40,795 nt of DNA from a virus: positions 1-40,795 of the IMG/VR virus record IMGVR_UViG_3300021962_000235; one strand, written 5' to 3'. Below the pieces are notes generated by a model. That model had not been told where the DNA came from. It was given only the letters and a program-made list of their open reading frames with translations, and ran no database searches. Below, piece after piece: positions 1,214 to 24,600 of this stretch; within the stretch, counting starts at the first letter, position 1; each line of letters starts with the position of its first letter. The translations under genes were made by a program, and so were the position numbers.

Positions 1214-2803
1214 TTATCCTTTATATATCCAAAAATATTGTTCGTATTCTTGTTTTGCTTTTTGTATAGAAACAGACAAGTCCCTATTGTAACCTTGCAT
1301 ACCTGGAATTTTTGTATCAAACATAGTATTACTTTTTGTAAAGCCTGTCAACATCGCTTTCTTATATTCTAGCTCTCTTTGATTAGTTTGGAAGACAGTA
1401 TCTTTAACCCAACAAGCAATTGCCAAAGACATAACTAAATCGTCGTTATATCCCTGCATCGCTTGTGGTCTTCCAAATGTCCAAATGAATGTGCTTAACT
1501 CATGGAAAGTTCTTATTGAATTTATTTTAATACTTTTGTTTCTAATAAATTCTTCCATCTTCGCAACGATTAAAGGTCTTGATTTATGTGAAGTTGTAAA
1601 ACCTGGGACTGTATTTGTTGTTCCCTCTGCGGTTACTTGGTCAACAAATTCTGCTGAACCTTTTGTTGAGAAGTAAACATTTGGATAACCCTTGTCTACT
1701 ATCTTTTCTAATACCGAAAACCCAAGGTTATTGTTTTCCACAACAACCATACAGTTTCCATATTCTTTACCAGTATTCACTACAAGCTCTGCGAAATCTT
1801 CTGTTGTTATTTTACCTTGATACTCTGCGACAATTTCCATAGTATCCAAATTAAGAAGATGGAATACAGAATTGTCTTTACCATCACCTCTCGCAGTATC
1901 AGCTACAAGAACGTAAGAATGGTTTGGATTATATTCTTTCCATATCCACAAGTTTCTATCAATATAAGTTCTTATTTTTGGTTCACTACAATTCTTTTCT
2001 ATTTGTTCTAATTCTTCAGCACCAATTACAGTTTCACCAGAAGCATTAAAAGAACATTCATATTCTTGTGCTATTTCTCTCTTAGACATATTCTTGGTTT
2101 CTCTTTCAAACCAAGCTTGATCTCTGTCTGGGTGGACTGACCAGTGTAATTTAATAGGATGAAATTCGTTTGTTCCTGTCTCTGCATCCAAGTAAGTTTG
2201 GTGGAACCAGTTACCTACACCATTAGGAGTTGAGATAGCTATACAACGACCACCAGTAGCAAGTGTAGGATATACACCTGTCCATAGTTCTTTCATGTTC
2301 TCGATAAACGCAGCCTCGTCCAGAACCAATAAAGAAAGAGCTTCCGAACGACCTGCATCACCAGAAGTCGCGGAAGCTTTAATTTGTGAACCGTTTGTAA
2401 GTTCAAATGAATTTCTATTGTCTATCGATACATCAGCAATCATTAACCAATCTGGTAAACTCTTAATAATATATTTAACTTTCTTAACCATGTTTGATGC
2501 TGAAAGTAATTTTGTTGCCAAGATAAGAACATTCTTATCTCTGTGGAACAACATTAGCCAAGCTATATAACCTGCTACGATTGTTGAAAGACCTAACTGA
2601 CGAGCTTTAAGAACTACGTTGAAACGATAGTCCTTCATATCTTTTAAAACTTCATCTTGAAATTCAAAAGTTCTAAAAGGTATTGGACCTTTCTGTGTGT
2701 CCGAAATTCTTGCGTATGTATTTAAAAAATAAATTGGATCTTTAGCACACTTTACAATTTCGGATTTAATTTGTTCTTTTGTAAGTCGGTATGCTGTAGC
2801 CAT
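1214..2803 (-). CDS. 17: Terminase large subunit, T4 gp17-like packaging motor
   Basis: 529 residues, a normal length for a large terminase. The N-terminal ATPase shows a deviant Walker A, KARQLGLST at residues 66-74 (arginine/lysine upstream of the usual GKT lysine position, as in many terminases), Walker B LLVLDEAAF at 158-166 with D162-E163, and the coupling motif STPNG at 191-195. The C-terminal RNase H-like nuclease shows its acidic residues at D302 (VADTARG), E356 (VVVEN) and D454/D455 (NDDLVMSLA). The enzyme pumps DNA into the prohead through the portal and cuts the concatemer; it acts at the portal vertex in the cytoplasm. No strong ribosome site precedes the ATG, but the upstream gene ends 6 nt before it. 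The small terminase subunit is not recognised nearby. Confidence 0.95.
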   Translation of the reverse strand: MATAYRLTKEQIKSEIVKCAKDPIYFLNTYARISDTQKGPIPFRTFEFQDEVLKDMKDYRFNVVLKARQLGLSTIVAGYIAWLMLFHRDKNVLILATKLLSASNMVKKVKYIIKSLPDWLMIADVSIDNRNSFELTNGSQIKASATSGDAGRSEALSLLVLDEAAFIENMKELWTGVYPTLATGGRCIAISTPNGVGNWFHQTYLDAETGTNEFHPIKLHWSVHPDRDQAWFERETKNMSKREIAQEYECSFNASGETVIGAEELEQIEKNCSEPKIRTYIDRNLWIWKEYNPNHSYVLVADTARGDGKDNSVFHLLNLDTMEIVAEYQGKITTEDFAELVVNTGKEYGNCMVVVENNNLGFSVLEKIVDKGYPNVYFSTKGSAEFVDQVTAEGTTNTVPGFTTSHKSRPLIVAKMEEFIRNKSIKINSIRTFHELSTFIWTFGRPQAMQGYNDDLVMSLAIACWVKDTVFQTNQRELEYKKAMLTGFTKSNTMFDTKIPGMQGYNRDLSVSIQKAKQEYEQYFWIYKG

Positions 2804-4555: not shown

Positions 4556-4966
4556 TTACTCGTTTGTTAAATTTTCGTAAAGATATATAGTTCCGTATGA
4601 AGTAGCAAGTCCAGCAGCAAATCCAACTCCAATCCATACAGGTGTTAGATTCCTATTTTGTTTTTTAACTAAACTATAAACTTTATCTAATTCTTCTTGT
4701 TTTGCTTTAAGTATTTCTTCATCGGTTTTCTTGATTGATTCAACATCATACTCAAGTTTTTGTGTATCTAATTCACATTCAATTTGTTGTTTCTTCAATT
4801 CAAACTTTGCTTCTTCTTTACAAGTTGCGATATCTGCATCACCCTTAGCTATAATTGTAGCCATAGCTTCTGCGGTTAATACTGTTCCGTCTATTGGTGA
4901 TGGTTGCCCTTTTTTGATAGGGGCATAATCTTGAGCAAATGCTAATGATGCGAGTAATAATATCAT
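4556..4966 (-). CDS. Signal-peptide, coiled-coil, C-terminal membrane protein (lysis-type candidate)
   Basis: 136 residues in three parts: a short hydrophobic leader (MILLLASLAFA, likely cleaved before QD), a charged coiled coil at about 45-105, and a C-terminal membrane segment at about 108-128 (VWIGVGFAAGLATSYG). The segment after the leader, KKGQPSPIDGTVLTAEA, resembles a stretch I associate with phage envelope/lysis proteins. No lipobox cysteine follows the leader, so a classical outer-membrane lipoprotein spanin is not supported. The ATG overlaps the TGA of the upstream spanin-like gene (ATGA). The leader has no positive residues at this start; the frame continues upstream through two lysines to an ATT, which would be a rare start. 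With its neighbour it probably forms a lysis pair spanning the envelope. Function is inferred from architecture. Confidence 0.6.
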   Translation of the reverse strand: MILLLASLAFAQDYAPIKKGQPSPIDGTVLTAEAMATIIAKGDADIATCKEEAKFELKKQQIECELDTQKLEYDVESIKKTDEEILKAKQEELDKVYSLVKKQNRNLTPVWIGVGFAAGLATSYGTIYLYENLTNE

Positions 4967-5334
4967 TTTTTTAATCCAAATCTTTTTTCTAATTCTTCGT
5001 TAACAGCAGCAGGGTCAGCTTTAAATTTTTGTGATAATTGCCACTGTTGATCAGCTTGTGCTTTTTTTATTTTAGCCAATTCTGTTTCGTGTTGTTTTTG
5101 AGCAGCATTCATTTTTTCTTGGTATTCATTAAACATTTTTTCATAAGCTACTCTTTGATCTTCTAAAGATTCTCTAAGTATAGAAATTTGTTTTTGATTT
5201 GATGCTTGTGAAGTTTCTAATGCTGTCTCTAAATTTTTGTTTGCGCTTGAAGCTGTTACATAAAAATAAACGGGAACAGCAATTATATATGCCGCTCCCG
5301 CTATTAATTTCCAATATTGTATTAAGAAGGTCAT
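4963..5334 (-). CDS. Inner-membrane spanin-like protein (Rz-type architecture)
   Basis: 123 residues with one N-terminal membrane segment at about 9-26 (KLIAGAAYIIAVPVYFYV) followed by a long charged coiled coil (about 30-105, rich in E, K, Q and A) and a polar tail ending RFGLKK. This is the topology of an i-spanin: anchored in the inner membrane with a rod reaching through the periplasm to fuse inner and outer membranes at lysis. It is followed by a signal-peptide protein in ATGA overlap, as Rz/Rz1-type pairs often are. The last two lysine codons form A_AAA_AAA immediately before the stop (see the slippery-site entry). No clear ribosome site precedes the ATG; its upstream neighbour ends 3 nt away. 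Endolysin and holin are not seen in this window. Confidence 0.6.
   Translation of the reverse strand: MTFLIQYWKLIAGAAYIIAVPVYFYVTASSANKNLETALETSQASNQKQISILRESLEDQRVAYEKMFNEYQEKMNAAQKQHETELAKIKKAQADQQWQLSQKFKADPAAVNEELEKRFGLKK
4966..4972 (-). promoter_or_regulatory. Candidate -1 frameshift slippery heptamer A_AAA_AAA at spanin-pair junction
   Basis: In the frame of the 123-residue spanin-like gene the last codons read TTA AAA AAA TGA, so a perfect A_AAA_AAA heptamer sits in phase directly before the stop. Slipping back one base would make the next codon ATG, the start of the downstream 136-residue gene, and produce one continuous 259-residue protein. No strong upstream Shine-Dalgarno stimulator or downstream hairpin was recognised, and A-runs are common in this A+T-rich DNA. 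The site may simply reflect two lysine codons. Confidence 0.25.
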
Positions 5335-5337
5335 ATA

Positions 5338-8300
5338 TTAAATAGTAATATAAGCGAATCCATCTTTATTATCAATAGTTATTATTTGATCTGCCACATC
5401 TTTTAAAGCATCCATGTGAGAAATAAGAAGGACAGTATCATAATAATTTTTGATCATATCAAGAATTCTAATGAACCCTTCCATATTTTCATTATCAAGA
5501 GCAGTTCCTGGTTCATCTAATATAAACAAATTTGATTTTGGTAGATTAGATACTTGTAGAAGAGAAAGTCGTATAGCCATAGCAGCAATAGATTTCTCTG
5601 CTCCCGAACCCATTTCAATTGGTCTTGAATCTCCATTTGGATGCTGAATACTGATATTAAGTTTTGAACCATCGTCCTCAAAGAAAACATCAAAGTCAAC
5701 AACATTAGAAAGAATTGCTGTAATCTCCTCGTTAATAATTGGAAGTTTCTTTTTGATAATCTCATATGAAATTCCATTTGTGCTTGTGGCTTTCATAAAA
5801 TAATCGTAAGCAGCAAACTGATTTCTATAATTCTCTAACTCTTTTTTATCTGCCTTAAGGAAAGCTACCTTTTCAGTTAGAGAACCAATTTTCATATAAG
5901 ATTTAGTAACTGCTTCATTAATCTTTTTGAAATCTTCTTCTAACAGTTTAAGTTCTTTTTCTTTCTGTGTTTTATCAATTCTTAACTCTGTTGCTTTGTT
6001 AAATGTTTCTTCGTTCTTTTTATATTTATCGATCTTTTCTTCTGTAATAATCATTTCTTTTTTAATGTTTGAAATGATCGTTTTCATCTTCTCGACTTCT
6101 ACTTTTAGTTGTAGTTCTTCTTTTTCAAGTTTGTGAACATCGTTTACATAGGTTTCATATTTGTTGATTTGTTCATCGATGCCTTTGTAACTTTCAAGTA
6201 TATTTGAAGTTGCTTCTTTATCATCTTCTAACTTTTTCTTCTTAGCTTGTGTTTCAATTAGTTTTGGTGAAGCGTCTACCGCATCTTTGATGAACATACA
6301 ACTTGGGAATCTTGAATCACATGGAACTTTTGTTAGAAGTTCTGTTTTACTTTTAAGTCCTGTTTCTTCTTTTATAATTGATTGTAGTTCAAAGTTAATT
6401 TGCTGAAGATTAGAAGTGGCTATATTCTTTTGCTTTTTCTTTTCTTTTAATTCATCAATATTAGAATAATCTTTGGTAATGATTGATTTGATATTTTCAA
6501 GCTCTGTTTGTTTACTATCAAGATCATTTTGTTTAGAATTCTTTTGTTTTGTAGCTTTATCTAGGCTTTGTTCCAGATATATTTTACGTTCTAATGTCGC
6601 ATCAATATCAATTATTTCTGTATTGTTATTTTTTAGTTGTCCTTCAATAATAGAAATCTCATTACGAAGTTCTACAAGGTTTTGTGAAATCTTTACAGAG
6701 TTAGAATTATTGTGACTTACAAGTTCGTTTGTGGTATCAAGTTCGTCAAGTGCTTTCGCAATTTCTGTATCGTAATCAATCACTTCAAGTTTTTTGATAA
6801 TTGCTTTTAATGATGCGCTTTCTTCTTTTGCTAATTTATTTTTAGCATCAAAGAGTTCAAGGTCCAAGAAACGAGCAAGGATCTCTTTACGCTTTGTTGA
6901 GCCCTCACGAATAAAAGAAAGTGAATCAAGCTGGGAGGACATAGAGGTTAGTAAGAAATCATCCATAGTTCCAAAGAGTTTCTTGATGTTTTGATCTGTT
7001 TCTACTCTTGTATTACCATTCATAGAAACACCATCGCACAAGAAATTCAATTCTGTTTTAGTTTCTTCTCCACCGTTCTTCTTAATGTTCTTATCACAGC
7101 TACGAGCAATCACATAATCATTATCTCCAATTGAGATTTTAAGATTTCCAATTGCTCCTTTCTTTGCTGTGTTAATAACGTTAGAAACTTTCTTTTCGTT
7201 CTTGGAAGTTGTATTAAAAAGAGTGTAAAGGATACTATCGATAACAGAAGATTTACCAGAATAATTCTTTCCAAAGATTCCTACGATTCCTTTAAGGTTT
7301 GAGAAATCAATTCTGTTTCCCTCGCCATAATTAAAAAGATTATCCCATTCAATTGACTTTACATTCCAATTTACATTACGAGCAACTTCTTCTTTTGCTT
7401 CTACTTCTGTATTATACTTTTTGTTAATCTCAAAAACTTTATCAAGGATTTCTCTTTCAACTTTATAATTTACCAAGAACTCTTCAATAAGTTGCTCTTG
7501 AACTTTTAGATTGCGTAGATCGTCTTTATCAATACCACCTACAACTTCCTTTAATTCTTTTGATCGGGCGACGTTCTTGGATAAAAAAGAAACACTTTCT
7601 GGTTTCCATCTTTCTTTTGCTACGTCACCAACATTCTTCATCATTTCTGCTGGTAGGTTGTTTCTTGATAGAAGACGAAGACGAGCATTAGGAGGCACGC
7701 TAACGCCCTCTGGAAGCTCTCCATTCTCTTCAAGTTCTACTGTGATAAAAGGATTAGGATTTGGAATTAGAACGTGCTGGCAGTCAAATGAGAGCTTGTC
7801 TTGAATATTCCAAATAAGAAATCCCTTATCATTTGTCTCACCATGATTTTGTTGTAGAGTAGAACCTGGGTATCTAATCTTTCCATCATTATCAAGGATT
7901 TGATTTGTCTTGTGGATATCACCAAGAAAAGCATAGTCATGACCATCAAAAATAGAGATATCGTGGTCTGCATGTTCAAGAATAAACCCTGTATCAGTTC
8001 TAACTCCGCTGATAGAGCCATGATAAAGAGCAATATTAATTGCGTTTGGATCAGATGGTTTTACCCAACCTTCTTCATCAAAGACAGAAAGAACATTAAG
8101 AGAAAAATTATCTTTTAGTTTTGTCTCGCCCGACTTCTTTAAAAGATGTAAATTCTCAATTCCAAGAGCGTTTACAATAGGACTTAATGCGTCTTGTCGA
8201 TTGTCGTTTGTTAAGTTACCATCGTGATTACCAAGAATAATATAAGTTGGAGCAATAGCGGCGAGATTAATAAAAAAATCTGCTGCCATTTCAACAAACT

Positions 8301-8463
8301 CTGGTGAGATTTGAGTTTTTGTATGTGCTATATCGCCACAGTGAATAATGTAATCAACTTTTTCATTTAGTAAAGTTTCATACATTTTATTAAAAACTGT
8401 TTTGTATTCGGTATGATACTTTAAGTTTTTAATGTGTGTGTCAGCAATATGCGCGAACTTCAT
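5338..8463 (-). CDS. Single-chain Mre11-Rad50 (SbcD-SbcC; T4 gp47-gp46) fusion
   Basis: 1041 residues from the ATG at 8463. Residues 1-300 are an Mre11/SbcD nuclease: D8-x-H10, GDIAH at 43-47, GNHD at 78-81, YHG at 147-149 and a final GDIH at 181-184 (many Mre11 proteins have GHxH here). After a helical segment (300-390) comes a complete Rad50/SbcC ATPase: Walker A GKNYSGKS at 398-405, Q511, coiled coils at about 540-880 broken by a zinc-hook-like C715-x6-C722, signature GSGAEKS at 952-958, Walker B LFILDEP at 979-985, D-loop and H1016. In T4 these are two genes (47 and 46) whose complex resects DNA ends for recombination-dependent replication. An in-frame GTG lies 6 nt upstream at 8469, but GGAGAGG is properly spaced only for the ATG. 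Confidence 0.93.
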   Translation of the reverse strand: MKFAHIADTHIKNLKYHTEYKTVFNKMYETLLNEKVDYIIHCGDIAHTKTQISPEFVEMAADFFINLAAIAPTYIILGNHDGNLTNDNRQDALSPIVNALGIENLHLLKKSGETKLKDNFSLNVLSVFDEEGWVKPSDPNAINIALYHGSISGVRTDTGFILEHADHDISIFDGHDYAFLGDIHKTNQILDNDGKIRYPGSTLQQNHGETNDKGFLIWNIQDKLSFDCQHVLIPNPNPFITVELEENGELPEGVSVPPNARLRLLSRNNLPAEMMKNVGDVAKERWKPESVSFLSKNVARSKELKEVVGGIDKDDLRNLKVQEQLIEEFLVNYKVEREILDKVFEINKKYNTEVEAKEEVARNVNWNVKSIEWDNLFNYGEGNRIDFSNLKGIVGIFGKNYSGKSSVIDSILYTLFNTTSKNEKKVSNVINTAKKGAIGNLKISIGDNDYVIARSCDKNIKKNGGEETKTELNFLCDGVSMNGNTRVETDQNIKKLFGTMDDFLLTSMSSQLDSLSFIREGSTKRKEILARFLDLELFDAKNKLAKEESASLKAIIKKLEVIDYDTEIAKALDELDTTNELVSHNNSNSVKISQNLVELRNEISIIEGQLKNNNTEIIDIDATLERKIYLEQSLDKATKQKNSKQNDLDSKQTELENIKSIITKDYSNIDELKEKKKQKNIATSNLQQINFELQSIIKEETGLKSKTELLTKVPCDSRFPSCMFIKDAVDASPKLIETQAKKKKLEDDKEATSNILESYKGIDEQINKYETYVNDVHKLEKEELQLKVEVEKMKTIISNIKKEMIITEEKIDKYKKNEETFNKATELRIDKTQKEKELKLLEEDFKKINEAVTKSYMKIGSLTEKVAFLKADKKELENYRNQFAAYDYFMKATSTNGISYEIIKKKLPIINEEITAILSNVVDFDVFFEDDGSKLNISIQHPNGDSRPIEMGSGAEKSIAAMAIRLSLLQVSNLPKSNLFILDEPGTALDNENMEGFIRILDMIKNYYDTVLLISHMDALKDVADQIITIDNKDGFAYITI

Positions 8464-8496
8464 GGTCACCTCTCCAAGAATGTAACGTCAAATGGA

Positions 8497-9423
8497 CTAA
8501 ATAGCAAGCAATCCTTTCTCTAATACCCAATCGTCTCCAATTGGTTGAGCTTTTGCTTTTGCTTCAAGAAATTGTTGTTTGGTCATTTCACCAACATCAC
8601 CAAATCCTCCAACATCAATCTTAAACAAATTTAAATCATACTGAATAAGATTCTCGATAAGATGTGATGCTTTCTTCTCTGCGTCTGGATCTAATGCGAT
8701 ATAAATGTTTGGTTCATAGTAAACAATCTTCTTAAATAGATTTGATTGTTGATTAAGAGTTGATCCAAGAAGAGGAATTGCGTTTTGTGCTTTCATCGCA
8801 TCAAACACTCCCTCAACCAAAACAATATCGCTATCCCAATCCAAATAGAGTTCATTAAAAACAATATCTTTTGAAACTTTGGGATTCATATATTTTGGAA
8901 AACTGTCTGTATATGAACGAGCAACAAAATAATTAACATCACCATTCTCGTTAAAAGATGGGATAATAATTCTTCCACTATACTCGCCAGAAGCACAATA
9001 ACCAGCTTTCCACATTACAATATCTTCTTTTGTAAATCCACGATCCTTAAGATATTTCATGGGGAACTTTGAACTTAATGGAAGATTTTTATTTGCGAGA
9101 GAAGTAAATTCTTCTGGCAGTTGGATCACTTCTTCAAGAATTTTAATTTGTTCTTGGAAGATATCTTCATCAAGTTGCGATAAATCAACAACATTATTGA
9201 TTTTATCCCACTCGTAAAGCTGGGATTGTGTTAAGCGTGACTTTAGTAAGCGACGAATATTCTTTCCACGTTCATCGCAAACCCAACACTTATAATTGTT
9301 TGATTTTAGATTTACGGAAAGTTTACGCTTGTGGTGCTGACAAAATGGACAAAAGAATAGGAGTTCATCACCAGAACGGCGATATTCTCCAAGGGCAGTA
9401 GAAAGTAGTGAGGTTTTGTTCAT
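8497..9423 (-). CDS. 61: DNA primase, T4 gp61-like (zinc-binding plus Toprim)
   Basis: 308 residues. The N-terminus is a CHC2-type zinc finger: CPFCQHH at 25-31 and CWVC at 46-49. A short linker leads to the catalytic Toprim domain, with the glutamate in VLVEGVFDAM at 201-210 (E204) and the metal-binding ALDPDAEK at 243-250 (D245, D247). The segment YLKDRGFTKEDIVMWKAGY at 124-142 is the usual DnaG-type pre-Toprim helix pair. The enzyme lays RNA primers for lagging-strand synthesis with the replicative helicase. The length fits phage gp61-type primases that lack a fused helicase domain. AAGG lies 7 nt before the ATG. It sits between the resolvase and the Mre11-Rad50 fusion in one co-directional DNA-metabolism group. 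Confidence 0.92.
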   Translation of the reverse strand: MNKTSLLSTALGEYRRSGDELLFFCPFCQHHKRKLSVNLKSNNYKCWVCDERGKNIRRLLKSRLTQSQLYEWDKINNVVDLSQLDEDIFQEQIKILEEVIQLPEEFTSLANKNLPLSSKFPMKYLKDRGFTKEDIVMWKAGYCASGEYSGRIIIPSFNENGDVNYFVARSYTDSFPKYMNPKVSKDIVFNELYLDWDSDIVLVEGVFDAMKAQNAIPLLGSTLNQQSNLFKKIVYYEPNIYIALDPDAEKKASHLIENLIQYDLNLFKIDVGGFGDVGEMTKQQFLEAKAKAQPIGDDWVLEKGLLAI

Positions 9424-9437
9424 GCCTCAACCTTATA

Positions 9438-9977
9438 TCAACTTGGTTCTAAAGTCAAGCCATACAAAGCTATAACAATCGCATCTGCTCTGTCGTCTGT
9501 TCCTGGTGCTGGATTTCCGTGGGCGGTCATGTTATACTGAAAATCTGGATGGTTCTTCTCAACATACTCAATAATGAACTTCTTAGAATCGCCCTTCTTC
9601 GTTCCTTTTGGTATCTTGATTCCTAATTTAGTTCTTGCGGATCTAACAGAAACCATTACAGGTTCTAATTCAAAAACTTTAAATACAATATAAGAACACA
9701 TTCCATTAAATCTTTGAAGAGTAGCCATAGTGTGAGCGGTTGTTTTACCACCACCAAAAGCTATGAAAGGTTCTTCAATAAAAACATCATCAATATAATA
9801 ATGTTTATTTAATTTAATTAATTTATTCTCTAACATTAAACCTCTTTCTTCTAATGAAAGATCAGAAGATAACTTTAATACTTCAGAGGTTAATATGTTT
9901 TTCTTTTCATCTAATACGGCTATGCCTATCTTGGAACTACTAACATCTAGTCCCAATACACAAATTGGTTTTTCCAT
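9438..9977 (-). CDS. ruvC: RuvC-like Holliday junction resolvase
   Basis: 179 residues, about the size of bacterial RuvC. The RNase H-fold catalytic residues are in the expected places: D11 in VLGLDVSSSKIGIAV, glutamate in VFIEEPF (E68/E69), and the C-terminal acidic group GTDDRADAIVIAL (D161, D162, D165). The loop GGGKTTAHTMATLQRFNG at 75-92 matches the RuvC segment between the second and third motifs. The family cleaves four-way DNA junctions; in a phage it would debranch replicating concatemers before packaging. T4 uses an unrelated enzyme (endonuclease VII, gp49), so this phage has a different solution. AGGA precedes the ATG, which lies 7 nt after the stop of the structural gene upstream; the primase gene follows 14 nt later. 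Confidence 0.9.
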   Translation of the reverse strand: MEKPICVLGLDVSSSKIGIAVLDEKKNILTSEVLKLSSDLSLEERGLMLENKLIKLNKHYYIDDVFIEEPFIAFGGGKTTAHTMATLQRFNGMCSYIVFKVFELEPVMVSVRSARTKLGIKIPKGTKKGDSKKFIIEYVEKNHPDFQYNMTAHGNPAPGTDDRADAIVIALYGLTLEPS

Positions 9978-9984
9978 CTATTCC

Positions 9985-11154
9985 TTATAGATCTAATTTT
10001 AATTTGAAAGTTAAATCTCTATCTTGAGTTTTTCTTACTGGTTTAGCAAGTTTAGCTATACCTATAACATTTTTATTTTCATCATACAACTTAATTGATG
10101 AAATAAATGTAGTTTTCTCTAAATAAGGTTCAGTATCATATGAACTTGAAACAACATTAGAAGGTTGTAAAGTATTGCTTTCATAATATGAATTTGAGCT
10201 AGTTAGTGGAACTATATTGCTGCCATAAGAAATAAAAGTTGGATTTGTTGAGTTATTTAACTCTCCTCTTTTAGCATGTAGAAACATCGTCATTATAGGA
10301 ACTTTATTTGAACCTTTGAACTGCATACTAAAACTAGAAGATGGAATCATACCATCAGTAAAAGATTCATTACCAAGACCAGTTCCAAAAGTTAACCAAG
10401 AAGATGTTACTTGATTTGTTATATCATTTAAGTAATTTCTTGTTACACCAGTCTCTAATTCCCAGCTTCCTGTTAAGATTATGAATCCTTCAGTATATAA
10501 AATAACTCCAGCAACGGAGCCAGAACCATTAGAACCACTTGGAGAAGTTTGAATCAATTCACCATTTCTTTTTTTATCTTCAAGTGTACCAATTAAAGTA
10601 CCAGAAATATAAAAATCTAATTTAATTGTTCCTTTTTCAATATTGTTTCCATAGAATATTGATGGTATACTTATTAAATTAAGAGGTATTGTTGATTTAT
10701 CTCCAAAAGAAGATGAATACAAATAAAATTGTGATAATTTATTATAATAGTTTAAAGTATTTTGTAATGCTGTAACTTTATCTCTACTTTCTCCACTAGA
10801 ATAATAATCTCTAGTTATTGAAGCACTTAAAGGATAACTACCTGTAATAATATCTCCGTAACTAAAATCACTATTAAATGAAGTTGTACTTATAGTTTTG
10901 AAAGATGCAAGGGAACTATTCTTAGAAATAAAAGGGTAGATTAAACCAGTTGAAATAACATTTCTGTCAACGTTTTCTTCATATAAATTAATGCTGCCAA
11001 CTGGTACATTTCCAATATTGTTTGTAAACGCACCAGATACTTCTGATTGATTATTTAAGTATGACTTTCCATTATAAATAAATAAACTTACTTTTGGATT
11101 AAATTCTACTTGATTAATAAAAAGTTCGTTTTGTTTTATTTTTTGTAAAGACAT
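9985..11154 (-). CDS. Virion structural-type protein, paralogue of its upstream neighbour
   Basis: 389 residues, rich in Ser, Asn, Thr and beta-prone, with no membrane segment. I do not recognise a named family. Its C-terminal part parallels that of the 342-residue protein encoded just upstream: NSTNPTFISYGS against YSSNPTYLSSGK, GVILYTEGFIILTGS against GLVYYQAGIAVLTAS, and the endings IGIAKLAKPVRKTQDRDLTF and AVAKLSEPLKKS, both closing in a K/R-L-K/R-L-D-hydrophobic sequence. The two are therefore tandem paralogues. Composition and context (after a long series of baseplate/tail genes) suggest a surface virion protein, possibly neck, tail or fibre decoration. No strong ribosome site is visible; the gap to the preceding gene is 10 nt, so coupling is likely. 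Confidence 0.8.
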   Translation of the reverse strand: MSLQKIKQNELFINQVEFNPKVSLFIYNGKSYLNNQSEVSGAFTNNIGNVPVGSINLYEENVDRNVISTGLIYPFISKNSSLASFKTISTTSFNSDFSYGDIITGSYPLSASITRDYYSSGESRDKVTALQNTLNYYNKLSQFYLYSSSFGDKSTIPLNLISIPSIFYGNNIEKGTIKLDFYISGTLIGTLEDKKRNGELIQTSPSGSNGSGSVAGVILYTEGFIILTGSWELETGVTRNYLNDITNQVTSSWLTFGTGLGNESFTDGMIPSSSFSMQFKGSNKVPIMTMFLHAKRGELNNSTNPTFISYGSNIVPLTSSNSYYESNTLQPSNVVSSSYDTEPYLEKTTFISSIKLYDENKNVIGIAKLAKPVRKTQDRDLTFKLKLDL

Positions 11155-11164
11155 AGCATTTCAA

Positions 11165-12193
11165 TTAGTAATCTAATCTAACTCTTACAGTCAATTCATT
11201 ATCTACAGATTTCTTTAATGGCTCACTTAATTTAGCTACAGCCAAAAGCGATTGATCTGCACCATACAAACCAATTGTGGTTATGTATGAAACTGGAGCA
11301 TCAGTAGAAATATTTTTAACTGTAATCTTACCACTACTTAAATAAGTTGGGTTAGATGAATAATTAAATTCATTATGATTTGCTCTACAGAAATATATTG
11401 ATGAATTTAACTCTGTTGAGTTATTAAATTGAATATTATATAATCTGTTTCTAAGACCATCTGCCGATCCAGAAATAGAACCAGTTTGGAAATAAGTATT
11501 TATTGATCCTGTGGCAGTTGAGGTATCTGATCTTGGTCCAAATTTACCATTAAAGATAGAAGCAGTCAAAACAGCAATACCAGCTTGATAATAAACCAAA
11601 CCAACACCACTATTTGTATTTGGTGTAGCTGATGAAGTATAAAGAATACCAAATTCTCCTGCGGGGCTATTTGTTCTATAATCGTTTGTTGCTCCATAAT
11701 CGCTTATTGTTTTTAAATCACTTGGAGAAGTGTTTGCGCCACCAGTTAAAAATTGTAAAGTAAAAGAGCCTTTTTTAATTTCATCTTTAGTTAACAATCT
11801 AGAAAATGAAAAGAAAACACATTCATTAAGTTTCGTACCAGCAGTAGAAATATTTCCATCTTGATCAAATTTTTGTATACTACCAGTAACATCAAATCCC
11901 ATCAAAACTTGAGCCATTTGGTTATATATATTAATCTTTTTATTGTTTTGAGTAGCAGAAGAACTTGATAAAGCTGATATTGGAGAATAACCAATTGTTA
12001 AATCAAGAATATGATTGGCTGATGAACTTAAATAAGGATAGTCATAAACAGATTGAAACATACCGTGAGTATAATTTTTAATATTATTATCTGCATAAGT
12101 TCCAGAAACTACTGTACCAGTTAAAGGTATGACTTCATGTAATAAAGTTCTTGTTGAAGCTATATCTGCTGAAGTGAAAGTTTTAAATGACAT
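11165..12193 (-). CDS. Virion structural-type protein, paralogue of its downstream neighbour
   Basis: 342 residues, beta-rich and Ser/Thr/Asn-rich, without signal peptide or membrane segment. The N-terminal third (LLHEVIPLTGTVVSGTYAD, HGMFQSVYDYPYLSSSANH) is unlike its paralogue, but the middle and C-terminal parts share ordered motifs with the 389-residue protein downstream: KKGSFTLQF, VGLVYYQAGIAVLTAS, SSNPTYLSSG and a final LTVRVRLDY. The shared C-terminal domain probably mediates the same attachment while the N-termini diverge. AAAGGAT gives a good ribosome site 7-11 nt before the ATG. The 21-nt gap before the start contains GATAAATA, close to the T4 late promoter box, but too near the ATG to leave room for the ribosome site in a transcript. 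Confidence 0.8.
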   Translation of the reverse strand: MSFKTFTSADIASTRTLLHEVIPLTGTVVSGTYADNNIKNYTHGMFQSVYDYPYLSSSANHILDLTIGYSPISALSSSSATQNNKKINIYNQMAQVLMGFDVTGSIQKFDQDGNISTAGTKLNECVFFSFSRLLTKDEIKKGSFTLQFLTGGANTSPSDLKTISDYGATNDYRTNSPAGEFGILYTSSATPNTNSGVGLVYYQAGIAVLTASIFNGKFGPRSDTSTATGSINTYFQTGSISGSADGLRNRLYNIQFNNSTELNSSIYFCRANHNEFNYSSNPTYLSSGKITVKNISTDAPVSYITTIGLYGADQSLLAVAKLSEPLKKSVDNELTVRVRLDY

Positions 12194-12214: not shown

Positions 12215-13135
12215 TCAAACTGATTTAACAATTTTAATTGGTATTGTTATTTGAGTACCTACTGTAGCACCTTTAACTGTTACAAACGTATCTATATAAT
12301 AATAATCGTTTGATGTAATAATTGTTGTAGTTCCACCAAATCTTTCATACAAAGAATTATTAATAGTTAAATCTGTTTTTAGTTTTAATTTAAATGAAAC
12401 TCTTTTATCTCTAGTTCCATTTAATAATGTACTAGAGCCAGCATCTCCGCTAGTATCAGCGGTTAAAAGACTTACAACGTTTGTAGAACCTTCTCTATAT
12501 GAAACACTGTAGGTTGCTATCCCATCATCATCTACATATGATAATGGGATATCATTACCTAAAGTATCAACAAGAGTTACAAAATTATTATTGAGTTCTA
12601 TTAAAAAGGTTGTTTCTGTTAAACTTGAATCAACACTAGATAGTAATCTTGTTTTGTCAGTTTCATTAGAATCTAAACCTTGGTCTATAACTATTTTTTT
12701 ATCAAAGCTGTTTGGTGAACTGTTAAGAACACCAGCAGAAGAACTAAGATTTCTATAATCTGCTGGCGTAGGTAATAAATATGTATTAGAAAGAGATGCA
12801 TTAGAAAAAAATGATGTTCCTTCTGTATCAACTGTATTTAATTTCATTACTGGTAAATAAAGTAATTGTGTATTAACGTTTGAAATAAGTTGAAATTTCA
12901 TAGAAGAAGCATTATTAGTAAAAGCTTCAAATACAGGAGTTTGTAAAATATCTAAATCGTAATAAGCTGATCCAGATGGATGATTTTTATTATATAAACC
13001 ATAATTTATTTCATCATCACCAAAAGCAAATTGAGTAATTTTAAAACTTCCATTACCTTGTGCTAATCTTAAACGACCAGTATCGGTTAAAACAGCATCT
13101 AATATTATATCTCCGCTATTATCTAAAAACGCCAT
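12215..13135 (-). CDS. Virion structural-type protein with shared N-terminal domain
   Basis: 306 residues. The N-terminus (AVLTDTGRLRLAQGNGSFKI, then FAFGDDEINY, about residues 14-45) matches in order and spacing the N-terminus of the 324-residue protein encoded upstream (IELTSYGKFLLSKG, then YYSFHDEDILY), so both carry one small homologous domain. The rest is beta-rich, ends with FVTVKGATVGTQITIPIKIV, and has no membrane segment. From memory this LTxxGRxxLxxG...F(G/D)DDEI pattern is common in structural proteins of marine T4-like phages, but its exact place in the virion is not known to me. GGAGAGG gives a strong ribosome site 9 nt before the ATG; the 29-nt gap upstream is one of the longer ones here but shows no terminator. 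Confidence 0.82.
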   Translation of the reverse strand: MAFLDNSGDIILDAVLTDTGRLRLAQGNGSFKITQFAFGDDEINYGLYNKNHPSGSAYYDLDILQTPVFEAFTNNASSMKFQLISNVNTQLLYLPVMKLNTVDTEGTSFFSNASLSNTYLLPTPADYRNLSSSAGVLNSSPNSFDKKIVIDQGLDSNETDKTRLLSSVDSSLTETTFLIELNNNFVTLVDTLGNDIPLSYVDDDGIATYSVSYREGSTNVVSLLTADTSGDAGSSTLLNGTRDKRVSFKLKLKTDLTINNSLYERFGGTTTIITSNDYYYIDTFVTVKGATVGTQITIPIKIVKSV

Positions 13136-15529: not shown

Positions 15530-17644
15530 CTATTTCTCTGTTATTATGAAATAACTATTCTCTAGAGGAACATTTTTAGAAGAAACTTCAGCTTTTGTAA
15601 ATATATTTTCTTCTTCTAAGTCTTTTTCTATTTTTATCAACATATTATCCATTAATGTAGTTAATTTTGTTAGTTTTGACCAATAGCCATCTACCTCTTC
15701 ATTATAATAAAATAAATATAATTTTGGAGTCATTTCTTCTTTGGTTGCTTTTTCTTTAAATTTTGAAAAATTCAAAGCGTGAGAAAATTGATTAGTTTGT
15801 TTTATTTTACTTTTTATATTCTGATCTGCTTTAGAAATATCTTGTAAAGTAAGACTATTAGATTTCAATCCTTTTTTGGCTGTAGAAGCTAGATTAGTTC
15901 TAAACGTTTCTGTTTTATCAAAAGAAGTAATTGTATTAGAACTTTCTAAATAACCAACAGATAATGTTACACCTAATTTTTCTAAATACGATTCTTCTGT
16001 TATTAATTGAGTTGATAAATTTAATTTTTTATTATCTTGTAGTGCTTTTGCAAATGAAGAAATATGACTAAAGGTTGTTGAATCAAATTCTAAATTATCT
16101 GTAATTTCATTTTTTTCTTTGTTATTAGAAATAAACTTTGGTCTAACTGTATTTGTAGTTGTATTATATCTGTTTATTATGTCTTGCATTTTACTTATTT
16201 GTAATTTAGGTATGCTATTATTATTTATATCATCAATTAAAAAGAAAGATGTATTTACCTTTTCTTTTATATTATAATTTTTAGTATAAAATTTTGTAAC
16301 TAAATTAATTTTGTTTAATTGATTTGTCTGAAGATCTAAGAAAATTTGATCAATAGTTTTAAAGAATGACATATATAAGCTAAAAGTAGAAACATCAAAT
16401 TGTAAGCATGAAACTATTTTGTTTATAGTTTCCGATGAAATTTGATCTTCTGCGCTTAAAAATAGGTTTATAACTTTAGAAATTATATTTTCAATTATTG
16501 ATCGTAAATCAAAGGGAATTTTAATTGTAGAAATTCTACCATTAATTATTTTTTTTGAATCAATTTGTGTTCTCTCACAAAAGCTTACAAATTCATTAGT
16601 AAATCTATCAGTTGTTGTATCTAAATAAAATGGTTCTTTTATATTAGGATTAGTTGGATAGTCGGCAAAAGTTTGAGCTAAAAATATAATATTTTTAAAT
16701 TGATAATATTGTTCGTAAACCTCAAAAAATGTACCAGTTCTATCATTTAAATTATAAAATGTAGAAAAATCTTCATCAACATAAGAAACTTGAAAACTAT
16801 AAGTTGTTATATATTCTTCTACATCTGTTACGCTGTTATCTTCAAAATAAAACAATATTGTTTCGTTTGACTTACTAATAAGTTTTGTATTAATTGAACT
16901 TGATAAAAATTTATTATTATTTATAATTAAATTTTCTAAACTCTTTAGAGAATTAGAAATAGTTATTTGTATATTATAATTTTCAAAATCGCTTGAACTA
17001 AAAAAAGAATTGTTTTGTAAAAATTTTCTGTAATTAAAACTAACAAAGTTATTTACTTTTGTTCCTACTACATCGCTTTTAACAAAATTAAAATATTTTG
17101 GTTTGTCTTCTCTGATCGATGATGGACTTATCAAATTTAGATTTTCTAATTCTGTAACGCTTCTATAATCGCTTACAACTGATGCTACAGTGTCACCATT
17201 TACATCTAAAAGATTAAAATATAAATCACCATTAGAATCTAATACGGGGTAATCTATAACTACCGAAGAACCTAAAATATTATAAACTAAACTTACTAAT
17301 GATCGATCAGTAATATTGTTGTCTGAGACATATCTATCAGATTCAAAATAAGTTCTTATGTTTATAGATAACAAACCGCTTGTATCTATGTCTGTAAAAG
17401 ATAATCTAATTGTTGCTGGTAATTCATTAATTTGAACTGTATTAGAAGCAATAATAGAAGTACCAAAAAGTACAATATCAAACTTTAAATACTCAAAATA
17501 ATCATTATTAGAAAAATTATTTACACCAGACTCGGTACCTTCTTCTATATCTAAGCTAATAGAAATACTATCATTTTGTAATATTGCTTTAGTTATATAT
17601 ACTTTTGGTAATTTTGAATTGTTGCCTGTAACAGTTATAATCAT
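15530..17644 (-). CDS. Large virion structural-type protein, family unknown
   Basis: 704 residues, Asn/Ser/Ile/Thr-rich. The N-terminal third is beta-rich with strands such as KVYITKAILQNDSISISLDI (residues 14-33). The centre has helical segments (IDSKKIINGRISTIKIPFDL and QMDIIN-type turns around 360-480), and the C-terminal 100 residues are charged helices (KIKQTNQFSHALNFSKFKEK onward). No known domain is recognised. The start overlaps the stop of the preceding 324-residue gene by 1 nt (TAATG), so translation is coupled to that protein, which carries the domain shared with the 306-residue protein. The tight grouping suggests the 324-, 704- and 785-residue products assemble together in the tail or baseplate. 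Function unknown. Confidence 0.8.
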   Translation of the reverse strand: MIITVTGNNSKLPKVYITKAILQNDSISISLDIEEGTESGVNNFSNNDYFEYLKFDIVLFGTSIIASNTVQINELPATIRLSFTDIDTSGLLSINIRTYFESDRYVSDNNITDRSLVSLVYNILGSSVVIDYPVLDSNGDLYFNLLDVNGDTVASVVSDYRSVTELENLNLISPSSIREDKPKYFNFVKSDVVGTKVNNFVSFNYRKFLQNNSFFSSSDFENYNIQITISNSLKSLENLIINNNKFLSSSINTKLISKSNETILFYFEDNSVTDVEEYITTYSFQVSYVDEDFSTFYNLNDRTGTFFEVYEQYYQFKNIIFLAQTFADYPTNPNIKEPFYLDTTTDRFTNEFVSFCERTQIDSKKIINGRISTIKIPFDLRSIIENIISKVINLFLSAEDQISSETINKIVSCLQFDVSTFSLYMSFFKTIDQIFLDLQTNQLNKINLVTKFYTKNYNIKEKVNTSFFLIDDINNNSIPKLQISKMQDIINRYNTTTNTVRPKFISNNKEKNEITDNLEFDSTTFSHISSFAKALQDNKKLNLSTQLITEESYLEKLGVTLSVGYLESSNTITSFDKTETFRTNLASTAKKGLKSNSLTLQDISKADQNIKSKIKQTNQFSHALNFSKFKEKATKEEMTPKLYLFYYNEEVDGYWSKLTKLTTLMDNMLIKIEKDLEEENIFTKAEVSSKNVPLENSYFIITEK

Positions 17645-18618
17645 TAACAGTTCTTTCCTGTTGCGTTATCTATAATTATCTTGTAAAGATCATTTGTAGA
17701 GTATCTTGATGAAACATTATTACAAATATCTATGGTATCAAAAATTTGATCTTGATCTTTAACAGATTTAATTATGTAATTACAAGCAACATCAGTATCA
17801 ATATCTTTGTCAAATTTAAAATCTAAATATTTTTCACAATAATTTTCATCAATATTATAACTTACAGTATTTCTTTTAATTGTTGTAAGAATATTATTAT
17901 CATCAACATATTTAATTTCTTTAACAAATTTCATTAAAACATAACTTTCTATACCACTTGCATCAGTATCTACTCTATAAACTTCAATATCAAATTTATC
18001 AATATCAACATCTACGTTTTCTTCTTCAATCTTTAAAACAAATTCATCATAGTTAGTTATATAAGCAGTTCTATCTTCTAAAAATATTGTATTGTCTATG
18101 TCTAAAATTGTTTGTAATCGTTCATTACTTTCTAGATCACTTTGATTAACTTTATATATTGAAGAAGTTAGAAAACAATTAAGTTGTGGTATTTTTAAAT
18201 TATCTCCAAACGTTGTTTCAATAGAACTAAAATTAACTGACAAGCTTCTGATATTCCAAGAAGGAACATATAAATTTGATATAGTAGAGTTACCAATTGA
18301 ATTATCAAAATATTCAACGTTGTAATCACTTAAATTTTGAATACTTTCTAAATAATTTTCTTGGTCTATAGCTTTTTGTAAATTTATTTCTGGAGATTTA
18401 AAGCTATATAAAGTTTTAAGATATGGTGTTTGTTCCTGTATTCTTACTTCGGCAACTGAGGGTGTTTCTGAAAAACTAGCATACCTAGCATCATATAAAA
18501 TGTCTTCATCGTGAAAGGAATAGTAAACTGGTTTCATTATTCCTTTTGATAACAAAAATTTACCATAGCTTGTTAGTTCTATATTTATTACTTCTTCTTT
18601 TGAATCAAAGAAAGACAT
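17644..18618 (-). CDS. Virion structural-type protein with shared N-terminal domain
   Basis: 324 residues. The N-terminal 45 residues (MSFFDSKEEVINIELTSYGK, then LLSKG and YYSFHDEDILYD) form the same small domain found at the start of the 306-residue protein at 12.2-13.1 kb. The remaining sequence is acidic (many D and E, for example EENVDVDIDKFDIEVY) and beta-prone. The C-terminal 50 residues contain several cysteines (C273, C282, C303, C324), with cysteine as the very last residue. AGGAG, embedded in the last Arg codons of the giant gene upstream, gives a strong ribosome site; the ATG lies 2 nt after that stop. It therefore follows the giant baseplate-type protein in one unit and probably binds to it or the neighbouring wedge. 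Confidence 0.82.
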   Translation of the reverse strand: MSFFDSKEEVINIELTSYGKFLLSKGIMKPVYYSFHDEDILYDARYASFSETPSVAEVRIQEQTPYLKTLYSFKSPEINLQKAIDQENYLESIQNLSDYNVEYFDNSIGNSTISNLYVPSWNIRSLSVNFSSIETTFGDNLKIPQLNCFLTSSIYKVNQSDLESNERLQTILDIDNTIFLEDRTAYITNYDEFVLKIEEENVDVDIDKFDIEVYRVDTDASGIESYVLMKFVKEIKYVDDNNILTTIKRNTVSYNIDENYCEKYLDFKFDKDIDTDVACNYIIKSVKDQDQIFDTIDICNNVSSRYSTNDLYKIIIDNATGKNC

Positions 18619-18620
18619 TT

Positions 18621-21600
18621 TTATCTCCTAATTTTTCTGGTTGTTGTTTTTGTTACACTTGAATTGTTGGTTGTTGTAGCGGTAGTAATCGTCTGAGGGT
18701 TTACTCTGCTAGATGTAGATACATTTGTTGTAGTTGAGGCAGAAGAACGAGAACCAACAGCATCAGTATTATCTCTATTTGAAGAAACTTGTTGAGCTTG
18801 TGTTGTTGTAGATTCTGTAGTTCTAGAAGCTGTTGTTAATGATGTAGTGGTTCTGATAGTTGAAGCTGCTTCAGTTGCTAATACTTCTGCTTGTTCCGCT
18901 ACAATTCCATTCTGTTGAATTGTAGAGTTCAAATTATTTTGAATTGTATTTGTTTGTAGCGTGGTTGAAACTGCACCTTCTACATTCTCTACTTTACCAA
19001 CTTTTTTAGTTGTGGCTTTGTTTAAAGTTTGTTTTTGTGTAGTGGCAACGTTAGAAAGTTGTTGTTTTATTTTAGCTGCTTGTTGTAACGTAGTAGCTCT
19101 CTCTAGTGGTTTGACGTTGTTTCTTACATTTGCTTGAGCTTCGGCAATATCAACTTCAACTTTTTTAGAGTTATTTGTTAAAGCTTTTAATGATTTAGAA
19201 GATAGATCTTTAATTGTATTTTCTTCTTCGTTAATATATTCAACTTTAGCATCAATCTTGGCGAGTTCTATGAGAGAGAAAAAGTCGTAAGGCCAATTGT
19301 AGGAATAGGTAAGATCTTGATCAATTTGTGAAAAATCAATACCATCTGTTCTATTGACTTTTTGTAATGTATTAAGTTTCTTACTATCTTTTTCTTGGAT
19401 TGAAGATACAAGTCTTTCAAAATAATTATTCTTTGCTTTTTGTTTGACCTTAAACACAAAGAATTTAAGTTTTTCATTAAGATTTGATTTATCAATTAAT
19501 TCATTTTCATTTAATTCGTGTGTAATAACAGATGTTTGTTCTTCAAATTTATAACCTATATCTGGTAATACTCCCTGCCAAATATCTGCTAGATCTTGTT
19601 GTGATAATGTATATTTAAATTCAAAGATATACATAGCTATTGGATCAATATTCAAATTATTAATAAAGTCAAAATTTGGTGGGAAAACATAATCTTTCAT
19701 AGTAGTAAATTGCTTTTTAATTGTATCACTAACACTTAAAGCAATATCAGTTTCTACTTGTTCGATATCTTGACTTAAACCAAAGTATTGTTTTCTTAAA
19801 TATCTAACAGCATTATCGTTAAGTTTGATATAACGTTTGGAATTATTTTCTTCAATATACGGAATTGCTACAACAGCTTCTTTAATTTCTCTTGATGAAG
19901 CAATTTTTCCAAGTTTAGAAGGAGACTTGCTGAACCCAACGATATCAGCTAGAGAACCAGTTAAAGATGGATCTCTTGTTGAAGTATCTGCTGCTGTTCT
20001 GTAATCATATTCTTTTCCGTATCTAGAAAAATCTTCTGGTACGTCAGTTATTTGTAAGTAAATTCCTTGTGTTTCTGTTGGAATTGAACCATATTGGTGC
20101 CACATACCTGCTGTTCCATAAGGAACTTGAGTAGAGCCAGTTGCATATCCTACAGCATATTCGGTATCAAAATGTAATATTGGTGTTTCAAATTTGGTTT
20201 GAATTGCCCAAGCTTTTGAAACATCAGAAGTGGTAGTAGCATCTGTTATATTTTGTGCTATTTGATTTAGATTTACTAAATTTAGCAAGTTAAGCGAAGC
20301 ACTAACTTGCATAGCATTTGCGTTTAAGTTTCCTTTGCCTTGAGGACCACCAGTTCCTAGCTCTGATTCTACAACTTCATATCTTAAATATTTAATTTGT
20401 AAATTGTTAAATATTTCTTGTAAAGTTGGCTTGTATGGTGTTGAACCAGTTGGTGTAAATGTTAATAACGCCCAACCTTCTCCATCATAGTAAGGAGGAG
20501 TGTAAGGAGCATAATATCCGTTTGTAGAATCTATTATGTTGTTTGTATAAATACTCGAACCAGAAACGCCACCTGCACAAGCTGGACCAAAGCCAGATGG
20601 TCTACTATACATATTTATAGTTTCAACCGTATTGGTTCTTGGATATTGAGGTTTTCTATATGAAGTATAAGAGCTTGTATTATAATACAAATAATCAGTA
20701 ACATCAACGCCATTAGAAGACTTGTATATTTTTACTAAAGCTCTATAACATTTTCCTGGCTCGACTATGCTAAATTCATTTTCTGGTTTAGAGTATAAAG
20801 TTGTTAATCTATTATCAGCCAAAAAGAAATTAATTGATTCTGCTAAGAAATTATTGATGTTTAATTTATATAAATCACTTTCATATTGTCCTGTCCAAGA
20901 TGAAGTAACATTTGCACTTGATGATGGATGTGAATCGCTATAAATTAAATCAATATTTAAATAAACTTCTGGCTTCAATAATGCTTCAAAAGGAATTCTT
21001 TTATCAAAAGAATTATTATTAATTTGATAGTCTATTTGTGAAGATGCGTCAAACTGACTTTGCGTAATTTGTAAACTACCAGTCATAACAGGATAGTCAA
21101 CAGCAATACCAGATTTTATAGTATTATATAATACACCTGGAGAAACTAAAGGAGTAGTTATATTTCTTCTAAAACCATTTGTATTTGATGTAATACCTTT
21201 ACTATTTCTCCATCTGGTGTAATACTGATCTGTAGAAGTTCTAAATTGATTAGCTATTAAATAACTTCTATTTTGCGGATACAATTCTCCATCTGGCGTT
21301 GGGTTAAATTTAATAATTGAATCGCAATTTAATGATAGTTTAATTTTATTTGACGTATCAATAAGATCGTTATTAATAATCTCAACATCTTTAACAAAAT
21401 TAGTGTCAGAGTATGTTTGTACTTGGTTAGTTGTTTCAGTTTGGTAAGCCGTAGCTAATTTAAGTTCGTTTGTTAGATCATCGTTTAATTTATTATTTAA
21501 TACATTACTTATAATTGAATCTGATGATATTATGTATTGTGGTAATATTGAATAATTCTTGTATTTTGATTTGTTTATTTGTTCAAGCCAATCTTTATAA

Positions 21601-24600
21601 GAATTATAATAAGGATTTTTGTTAGCTTGCTGACCAACGATCCAAGGCTCCGTACCACCTAACAACCCATTATCAATATTTAACGATGGTAAACTTAAGG
21701 TTCTATTTGTATTATTTATAGACATATAACTATGTTTAGATGATAACATTTGTTTATATGAATAAAGAACATATTTAGATATGTTGTTAAGATTCCCACC
21801 ATGTACTACGTTACCTACTGTTTGTAACAACCCAATATCTGAATCACTACTAGATAATTCAGAATTTAAATACCAATTGTCCATATTCCAATTATCTCTA
21901 TCTTTTCTCAAATCTCTCCAATATCCTGCTGTTTCGTAATAATCATCAAAATAAGTATTTATAATATTTGTTGATTGTAAATTTTTTACTGGAAAAATGC
22001 TAGTATTTAGTTCATAACTTAATAATTTATATTGTGAATTATTCAATAATAATTTTAACATTAAATCGTAAAATGTTTTATTTTCTTCAATTGTAATATT
22101 ATTAAATAAATTAATATTTTCAAAACTTTGTTTTAAGTTATTTAATGTATGTAAAAATCTTAATTCTTTATTATTTACAACATCTTTAAACCTTACTCTA
22201 TTTGGTTTGTTATAATAAACAACTGGTTCCTTTTCAATAATAAAATTATTATTTTTGTATAGGGTTATATAATTATCTTGATTTTGTTTACGAACTACTG
22301 GATGGTATGAATTTCTAACTTGTTTAAAAGTTGTATATCCATATGGTCCATTTCTATTAAGAATTAGAGAGTTAAATGCACCATAAAAGTTATTAATAAC
22401 TCTGAAATAACCAGAGTTTATTAATGCTTCTCGCCAATCATTTTCGGAATAAACATATTGATTATTAAAATATAACGTATCATTTCCAAAATTTAAAAGC
22501 CCACCAAAAATACTTTCATATCCATAATACAAATTCGTAAAAGGTTCAAAACGCTCACCAGCATTATTAGTTTCATTTAACAAATCTATATTTGTTAGAA
22601 AGTCTAACGTTGTATAAGTTGGATAGTTAAGCAAATGAATGTTTAAACCAACAAAATCTGTAGGAATAAAACCAGATGAACCAGAAACAAGTTTATCTTC
22701 ACCTAAAATTCTAACATTTTGTGTTGTATCTCCAATAAATGGAAAAGTAGGGATATAGTCTCTAACTACATCTGAAGAACTTAAATAACTTCCAAATTCA
22801 GAAGCACTTATGCTATCTAATGTTTTTATTACAGAAGTAGAGCCAGATGGAACTGTTATGTAAGAACCATTAGATATTTGATTATCTAGATAACCATAAT
22901 AAGCTAATGAAGAAGTTGGAACAGAAGCTCTAATCCAAGCATAACCAGCATCGTTTTGTGGTATTTGATGGGTAAAGAAACCATTATCATTATCTTTTGT
23001 TATTTGGGTCGAAGTATCACCAGAGTAATCTACTGTTGTTAGTGGATTTTTATTTACTTTGTGTATGGATGGAACTGTAGCAGAACCAGTTTGATAACCA
23101 CCAAATAGGGATGATTTGGCTTGGAGAGTATTAAAATCTCCTGTTGCTCCAACTATTATTTCTGGGTATTGTGTTTTATCGTTATTTAATGATTCTCCAT
23201 TTCTTCTTCCATCACCAATTACTTGACGATTTCTAAATCCATTAACGTTATATGGTGATAATTCTTCAGCATATCTATTAAGATAACCTCTTGAATTTGT
23301 TCTATAATCGCCAGGAGCAGAGAATTTGTTTCTTATAACGGTTTCTGATTTTTGTCTTGTTGGAAGAGTAAAATCAACTTTACCATTAGTTACGTTTGTT
23401 CTTATGATTCCAGCAAGTTCAGTATTTATTGTTGGGTTTTCAGCATCAAGAAGTTCTCTATTATTTGTAGTTGCTCCAACAGTATGAACAACTTGATAAT
23501 TCTTTTCATAATTACCAAGGTCAATTGAACCAGTAGAAGAACGAATATTCTTTATATTTACTGGTCTTTTGGCTGTTTCTTCTCTTAAATAAGTTGCTCT
23601 TTTGTGAGCACGAACTGGATATGATGGACTATCTGGATTGCCTTCTGGATAAGGGTAATCGGCCCCTACAAAGCCTATAGCTGCTTGATAAGGACCAGAA
23701 AAGCTTCCAGTACCCAAAAGTATTTTCCAAGCTTCTGGACGAGTTGTGTAGGTATCGGTGCCTTGATTTAGTGCAACGTGTCTTGATTGACGACCACCAA
23801 CCCACTGGTTTGTGAATGGACCTTGAACTGGTACTTCGTTTCTTGAACCGTAAGTATCGTTGTGAATGTTAGTTATTATAACTCCATTCATAAACTCACT
23901 AGCTACTTGTGATTGATAACCAGAAGTTACTGTTCCACTTATAAAATTAGCTGGTAAAGCAATTTTAGAACTTAATATTTCTCCGTAACCAAGCGAAGAA
24001 GAAAGATAATCTCTACCATGAACAGTTGTGAAATAATATTTAACTTTTTTAATTGGATCAAGAACATCATTACAATCTTGTAGTAATGATGAAGTGCTTG
24101 GTATACCAGCAAAAAGATAATTAGCTGGAACGTTGATTACACTATCAGTATCCATAGGACCATGAGGAGTAAGAGCGACTGTAGCAAATTCAAGATTTTT
24201 GTTATTACTAAAATTTACACCACCTTGTACTGCTTTGCTTTCATCAAGTTTTAAACGATATGGTGTTGTAAACGAACGATTAAGAGCTTGTAAACTAACA
24301 TTTAATAATTGTTTTCTTGAAGCATTTACATCACTATTTGAAGATGAAATTGGAGTTACATCTCGTTCTGCTCTTTCGTTCCAATATAAAGTGTTATCAG
24401 ATTCATCATTACTTAATGGATGATAACCAATTCTCCAATTATAAAAATGACGATTAATTGATTGAGCACCAGCTTCCAAAACAGGAACTTTAAATTCCAT
24501 AGTTGGAAATTTAAACTGATGTTTATTTCTTTCTAATGTATGACTTTCAATTACATTTAATAAACCTTCACTAGTATCTGCTGAAGCTGGAGCTAATTGA

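Follow-up and report, generated by a model that had tools for sequence, protein, structure and literature searches.

Fusions of the Mre11 nuclease with the Rad50 ATPase were reported by Yoshida, Claverie and Ogata in 2011 from Mimivirus, a Bacillus phage, plasmids and eukaryotes (PMC3175470). The kind of fusion considered here was described for R555 of Mimivirus and for a further twelve cases, one of them from Bacillus phage 0305phi8-36; many aquatic homologues of the fusions were inferred to be viral, and phage genes, primases among them, were found on the same scaffolds (PMC3175470). R555 has GDxxH in place of GDxxD, and an Asp at the position of P. furiosus His206 (PMC3175470). His206 and His208 of P. 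furiosus are the histidines of the canonical GHxH.

We analysed a 40.8-kb phage fragment, referred to as the window, which carries a well-preserved further example of this kind of fusion, known since 2011. An earlier note, made from the sequence alone, had described the two halves as lying in one uninterrupted frame at 5338-8463. The fusion itself stands; its strand had to be corrected. The gene is on the minus strand, as a single ORF of 1041 codons from an ATG at 8463 to a stop at 5338, and the plus strand of the same interval contains many stops throughout. A Shine-Dalgarno-like GGAGAGG is located just 5′ of the ATG, with GGAGAGGTGACC immediately 5′ of this codon; a longer form initiated from a GTG at 8469 is less likely than the ATG form. 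The gene and its parts are as follows.

5338..8463, minus strand: fused SbcD/Mre11-SbcC/Rad50 gene, 1041 aa, ATG at 8463, stop at 5338
7393..8463, minus strand: nuclease half with capping region and helix-loop-helix, residues 1-357 (phrog_100; motif conservation; AF2 helices 319-333 and 337-357)
7366..7392, minus strand: joint, residues 358-366 (0 indels in 40 aligned sequences; 83% mean majority-residue conservation)
6859..7365, minus strand: ATPase N-lobe, residues 367-535, with Walker A 398-405 and Q511 (motifs, PHROGs, AF2)
6283..6330, minus strand: coiled-coil apex (hook), residues 712-727, with C715-x6-C722 (motif conservation)
5341..5784, minus strand: ATPase C-lobe, residues 894-1041, with signature 952-958, Walker B 979-985 and H1016 (motifs, PDB sequence match)

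The SbcD/Mre11 nuclease occupies approximately residues 1-357 and is followed by the SbcC/Rad50 ATPase at approximately 365-1041. In PHROGs, an SbcD-like family (phrog_100) covers residues 1-371 (E 2.6e-28) and an SbcC-like family (phrog_77) covers residues 296-1039 (E 1.3e-58); NCBIfam and PDB sequence matches agree with this assignment of both halves, and Pfam gives Metallophos (4.9e-12) and AAA_23 (8.1e-09). The motifs listed in the earlier note were all located at the residues it gave: D8/H10 and GNHD (78-81) in the nuclease, and Walker A GKNYSGKS (398-405), signature GSGAEKS (952-958), Walker B LFILDEP (979-985) and the switch His, H1016, in the ATPase, where they make up the hallmarks of Rad50. 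The nuclease half additionally contains GD (43-44), H148 and GDIH (181-184). Catalytic and ATPase residues are invariant or nearly so among 83 sequences of the family, as well as among the 40 aligned sequences.

The nuclease site departs from the canonical one at two places, neither of which was mentioned in the earlier note. GDxxD is replaced by GDIAH (43-47), with H47 present in 82 of the 83 sequences, and GHxH, the canonical metal-binding motif of Mre11/SbcD, is replaced by an invariant GDIH (181-184; 83/83). The latter replacement could mean a different use of metals or a different nuclease activity. If the nuclease half were weakened or dead, the main work of the chain would be to tether or clamp DNA, driven by ATP; this reading agrees with the finding that Asp invariably replaces the His206 of P. 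furiosus in the family. We consider it improbable: all other metal ligands are invariant in the fusion family, Asp is itself able to bind Mn or Mg, and conservation of the site as a whole would argue for activity. Moreover, unfused SbcD proteins of T5-like and Vibrio phages have GDLH, and the same change was reported for Mimivirus R555 (PMC3175470). The occurrence of GDLH in these phages also rules out GDIH as a fusion-specific feature.

The earlier note proposed that the helical segment at 300-390, with which Mre11 docks on Rad50, serves as the covalent bridge, and this is supported by the predicted helices and the constant length of the joint. An AF2 model (40 sequences, mean pLDDT 79.7), which has structural matches to Mre11-Rad50/SbcCD, places helices at 319-333 and 337-357 and ATPase strand 1 at 365-374; its pTM is only 0.48, too low to fix how the two halves are placed relative to each other. 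Neither the helix-loop-helix (41 residues) nor the joint (9 residues) varies in length in the 40-sequence alignment, in which the joint is conserved at 83% compared to 65% for the whole protein. Unfused phage SbcC proteins (from T4, cyanophages, Moorella, Vibrio and T5-like Proteus phages) begin to align at about their residues 2-8, opposite positions 365-369 of the fusion; therefore, the join sits at the natural start of the ATPase. In T. maritima Mre11-Rad50, the gap was estimated at ~28 Å, to be bridged by 9-12 residues (PMC3175470), and a 9-residue joint would fit packing within one chain.

A join at the very point from which a separate ATPase would start could also be expected if the gene gave rise to two proteins, through internal re-initiation producing free Rad50 or through a protease cut in the linker, so that the working complex would be an ordinary two-subunit one; ATG, GTG or TTG codons are indeed present in this region in some relatives. 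Yet the window has no in-frame ATG from residue 275 up to the ATPase, which makes separate re-initiation, a concern raised in the earlier note, unlikely. The lone TTG (codon 330) has no Shine-Dalgarno sequence, positions of starts with Shine-Dalgarno sequences in relatives are scattered (none is shared by more than 5 of 82), and the joint, being fixed in length and conserved, does not resemble a variable protease-sensitive loop. Overall, production of two proteins appears highly improbable, and a single working chain is the reading we prefer.

Related stretches numbered 379 in a scan of IMG/VR and, in a scan guided by a profile, at least 580 among the 600 matches listed. The search for single-chain fusions proposed in the earlier note thus showed them to be common to hundreds of aquatic phages. 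The whole protein is encoded in one frame at all 157 IMG/VR loci inspected (114 distinct proteins), including relatives down to ~47% identity, and in the complete Microcystis phage Mel-JY01 the fusion is one annotated gene of 1066 codons. Unfused phage genes are arranged in the same order, in several phages with short overlaps, and two such neighbours might have been joined by a sequencing or assembly error; with the same single frame at 157 of 157 loci and in Mel-JY01, such an error has a negligible probability and is ruled out, as is chance. No stop between the halves had been lost, a caveat of the earlier note.

Twelve IMG/VR contigs of 148-204 kb, which may be incomplete, and Mel-JY01 have one strong SbcC and one strong SbcD match each, in the same frame, and no second strong copy of either was found in these 13 long relatives; for the phage of the window, of which only a fragment is at hand, a sole copy is not provable. 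Genome contigs yielded two matches: a fused one on a bacterial MAG contig that agrees in length, coordinates and identity with IMG/VR contig 2802429371_000007, and a partial one to the nuclease. A search of plasmids returned weak partial nuclease matches only. In Flavobacterium phage immuto, a family-profile search of two stretches (~95 of 160 kb) detected neither the fusion nor a split version at the same locus; the primase gene is followed there by one for an exonuclease from a different family (phrog_298).

In trees of the phage proteins, the fused ones group together with ultrafast bootstrap values of 100 (concatenated), 97 (nuclease) and 99 (ATPase). These trees are small and thinly sampled, with LR756501 forming a long branch, giant-virus fusions left out and E. 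coli SbcCD as the sole cellular sequence; the grouping suggests that the phages sampled go back to a single fusion event. Across all life, the fusions are not monophyletic (PMC3175470).

Inserted elements were seen at two related loci. In the 484-kb phage LR756508.1 (locus L002 4944-9169), the fused gene is interrupted soon after the metal motif GDIHKRQ by an ORF of 305 aa that contains paired cysteines, as in homing elements; no Rfam match to an intron was found in the interrupted gene. At locus L163 (938-5074), an intact fusion gene is followed by a 240-aa ORF that looks GIY-YIG-like by eye and then by a second copy of the 3′ end of the fusion gene (profile 988-1049), as if a homing endonuclease had brought its own gene end.

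The canonical CxxC zinc hook of Rad50 is not present in the window protein, which has C-x6-C (C715/C722) instead. This hook, pointed out in the earlier note, is real: C715 occurs together with C722 in 77 of the 83 sequences, as C-x6-C or, where one residue is inserted, as C-x7-C. It is not tied to the fusion, however. The remaining sequences carry CxxC-type hooks, including Mel-JY01 (HEYDPKCKHC) and the 735-kb phage LR756501, LR756508 has such a hook too (SEFDPECEYC), and the unfused SbcC/Rad50 of a Moorella phage has C-x7-C. Thus, the extended hook and the fusion each occur in the absence of the other, which rules out C-x6-C as a product of the fusion. We put forward only tentatively, and regard as rather doubtful, the combined proposal that the Rad50 apex in this lineage swapped the CxxC zinc hook for C-x6/7-C at the same place and that the joint is rigid and not a flexible tether. 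If true, arm-arm bridging and head-nuclease motion would depend on a fixed lever and on a hook that uses a different metal (or a disulfide).

The following genes were identified around the fusion gene.

8497..9423, minus strand: DnaG-type DNA primase, upstream neighbour (phrog_47, E 7.8e-51)
9438..9977, minus strand: RuvC-like Holliday junction resolvase, upstream (phrog_159, E 8.9e-12)
4963..5334, minus strand: Rz-like spanin, beside the fusion gene (weak PHROGs match)
1214..2803, minus strand: terminase large subunit, ~2.5 kb downstream of the fusion gene (phrog_2, E 2.2e-55)

The fused homologues of Mel-JY01 (WWT39521, annotated as 'AAA domain containing protein') and the uncultured phage LR756508, which are ~31% identical to the window protein, have a primase upstream as well; in Mel-JY01 one small gene lies between, and in LR756508 the primase was identified by likeness and position.

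Several other features of the window were recorded. An ORF at 4556-4966 (minus strand) overlaps the spanin-like gene and starts with a signal-like hydrophobic stretch; 4556-5334 is likely a spanin pair. The closest named relatives of the terminase and of a baseplate wedge protein (29244-31040, minus strand) are from Mel-JY01, immuto and LR756508. The structural region includes an ORF of 3065 residues (18621-27818, minus strand) with no Pfam match. Adjacent genes at 9985-11154 and 11165-12193 (minus strand) have paralogous C-terminal thirds (26% identity, E 2e-10). Products of 12215-13135 and 17644-18618 (minus strand) share by eye a similar N-terminal stretch, D-x2-LT-x2-G-x2-LL/LA-x-G ... GDDEI/HDEDI-x-Y, and are possibly related tail or baseplate proteins.

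The window gene very probably encodes a single-chain phage gp47-gp46 (SbcD-SbcC, Mre11-Rad50) machine that belongs to a large lineage of aquatic tailed phages. It likely has a role like that of T4 gp46/47 in end processing for recombination and replication, because the neighbourhood of primase, RuvC-like, spanin-like and terminase genes and the parts of the protein fit such a role, which draws on established knowledge of T4 and SbcCD. Two fusion chains would pair into the usual M2R2 complex, in which the Mre11 helix-loop-helix would pack on the root of the coiled coil of its own chain and continue via the 9-residue joint into ATPase strand 1. Binding of ATP would close the two ATPase heads on DNA, and its hydrolysis would allow the nuclease to reach DNA ends, which would be processed for recombination-dependent replication and possibly, as in T4, for host DNA breakdown. 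The 1:1 stoichiometry fixed by the fusion, to which the earlier note drew attention, adds little, since canonical complexes are already M2R2. An enzyme of 1041 residues in one chain may be a convenient construct for learning how the ATP state controls the nuclease, because subunit mixing is not an issue; we found no experimental study of a fused Mre11-Rad50 protein in the open-licence literature.

The same two enzymes in the same gene order are encoded by T4 (gp47/gp46) and by T5-like, SPO1-like and cyanophages (SbcD/SbcC), and the expected role in recombination and replication is shared with T4 gp47/gp46 and relatives. In contrast to the window, T4 and its relatives have two separate genes, and the T4 and cyanophage proteins have GHFH and a CPxC hook. 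The statement of the earlier note that the genes are normally separate holds for T4-type phages but not for the fusions published since 2011 (PMC3175470). E. coli SbcCD and archaeal and T. maritima Mre11-Rad50 match the fusion protein in fold and motifs but consist of two subunits; E. coli SbcC alone has 1048 aa, with a longer coiled coil than that of the fusion. Whole-chain fold matches in BFVD came from Tupanvirus (A0A6N1NVE8, 1379 aa), Catovirus, Tenacibaculum phage pT24 (A0A1B4XWF0, 1310 aa) and Listeria phage LMTA-57 (A0A068CB47, 1009 aa); the three proteins of given length are 15-23% identical to the window protein, and the length of the whole-chain match to the predicted structures implies that they are probably fused.

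The window protein has the nuclease followed by the ATPase in one chain, as in R555-type fusions, and shares with R555 DxH, GDxxH, GNHD and Asp at the His206 position (PMC3175470). Like other fusions described in 2011, it keeps the helix-loop-helix followed by a short joint (~9-12 residues), and, as in the viral ones, where the fused form is the only copy (PMC3175470), it has no second strong match beside it in the 13 long relatives. R555 is larger, with 1351 aa vs 1041 aa here, and its coiled coil is probably longer. The long environmental scaffolds in which the 2011 study confirmed the fusion were few; here it is confirmed in many phage contigs. Our analysis thus supports and extends the inference that aquatic Mre11/Rad50 fusion genes are phage genes (PMC3175470), adding to it phage contigs of great length, the conserved presence of a primase gene nearby and a joint that is fixed.
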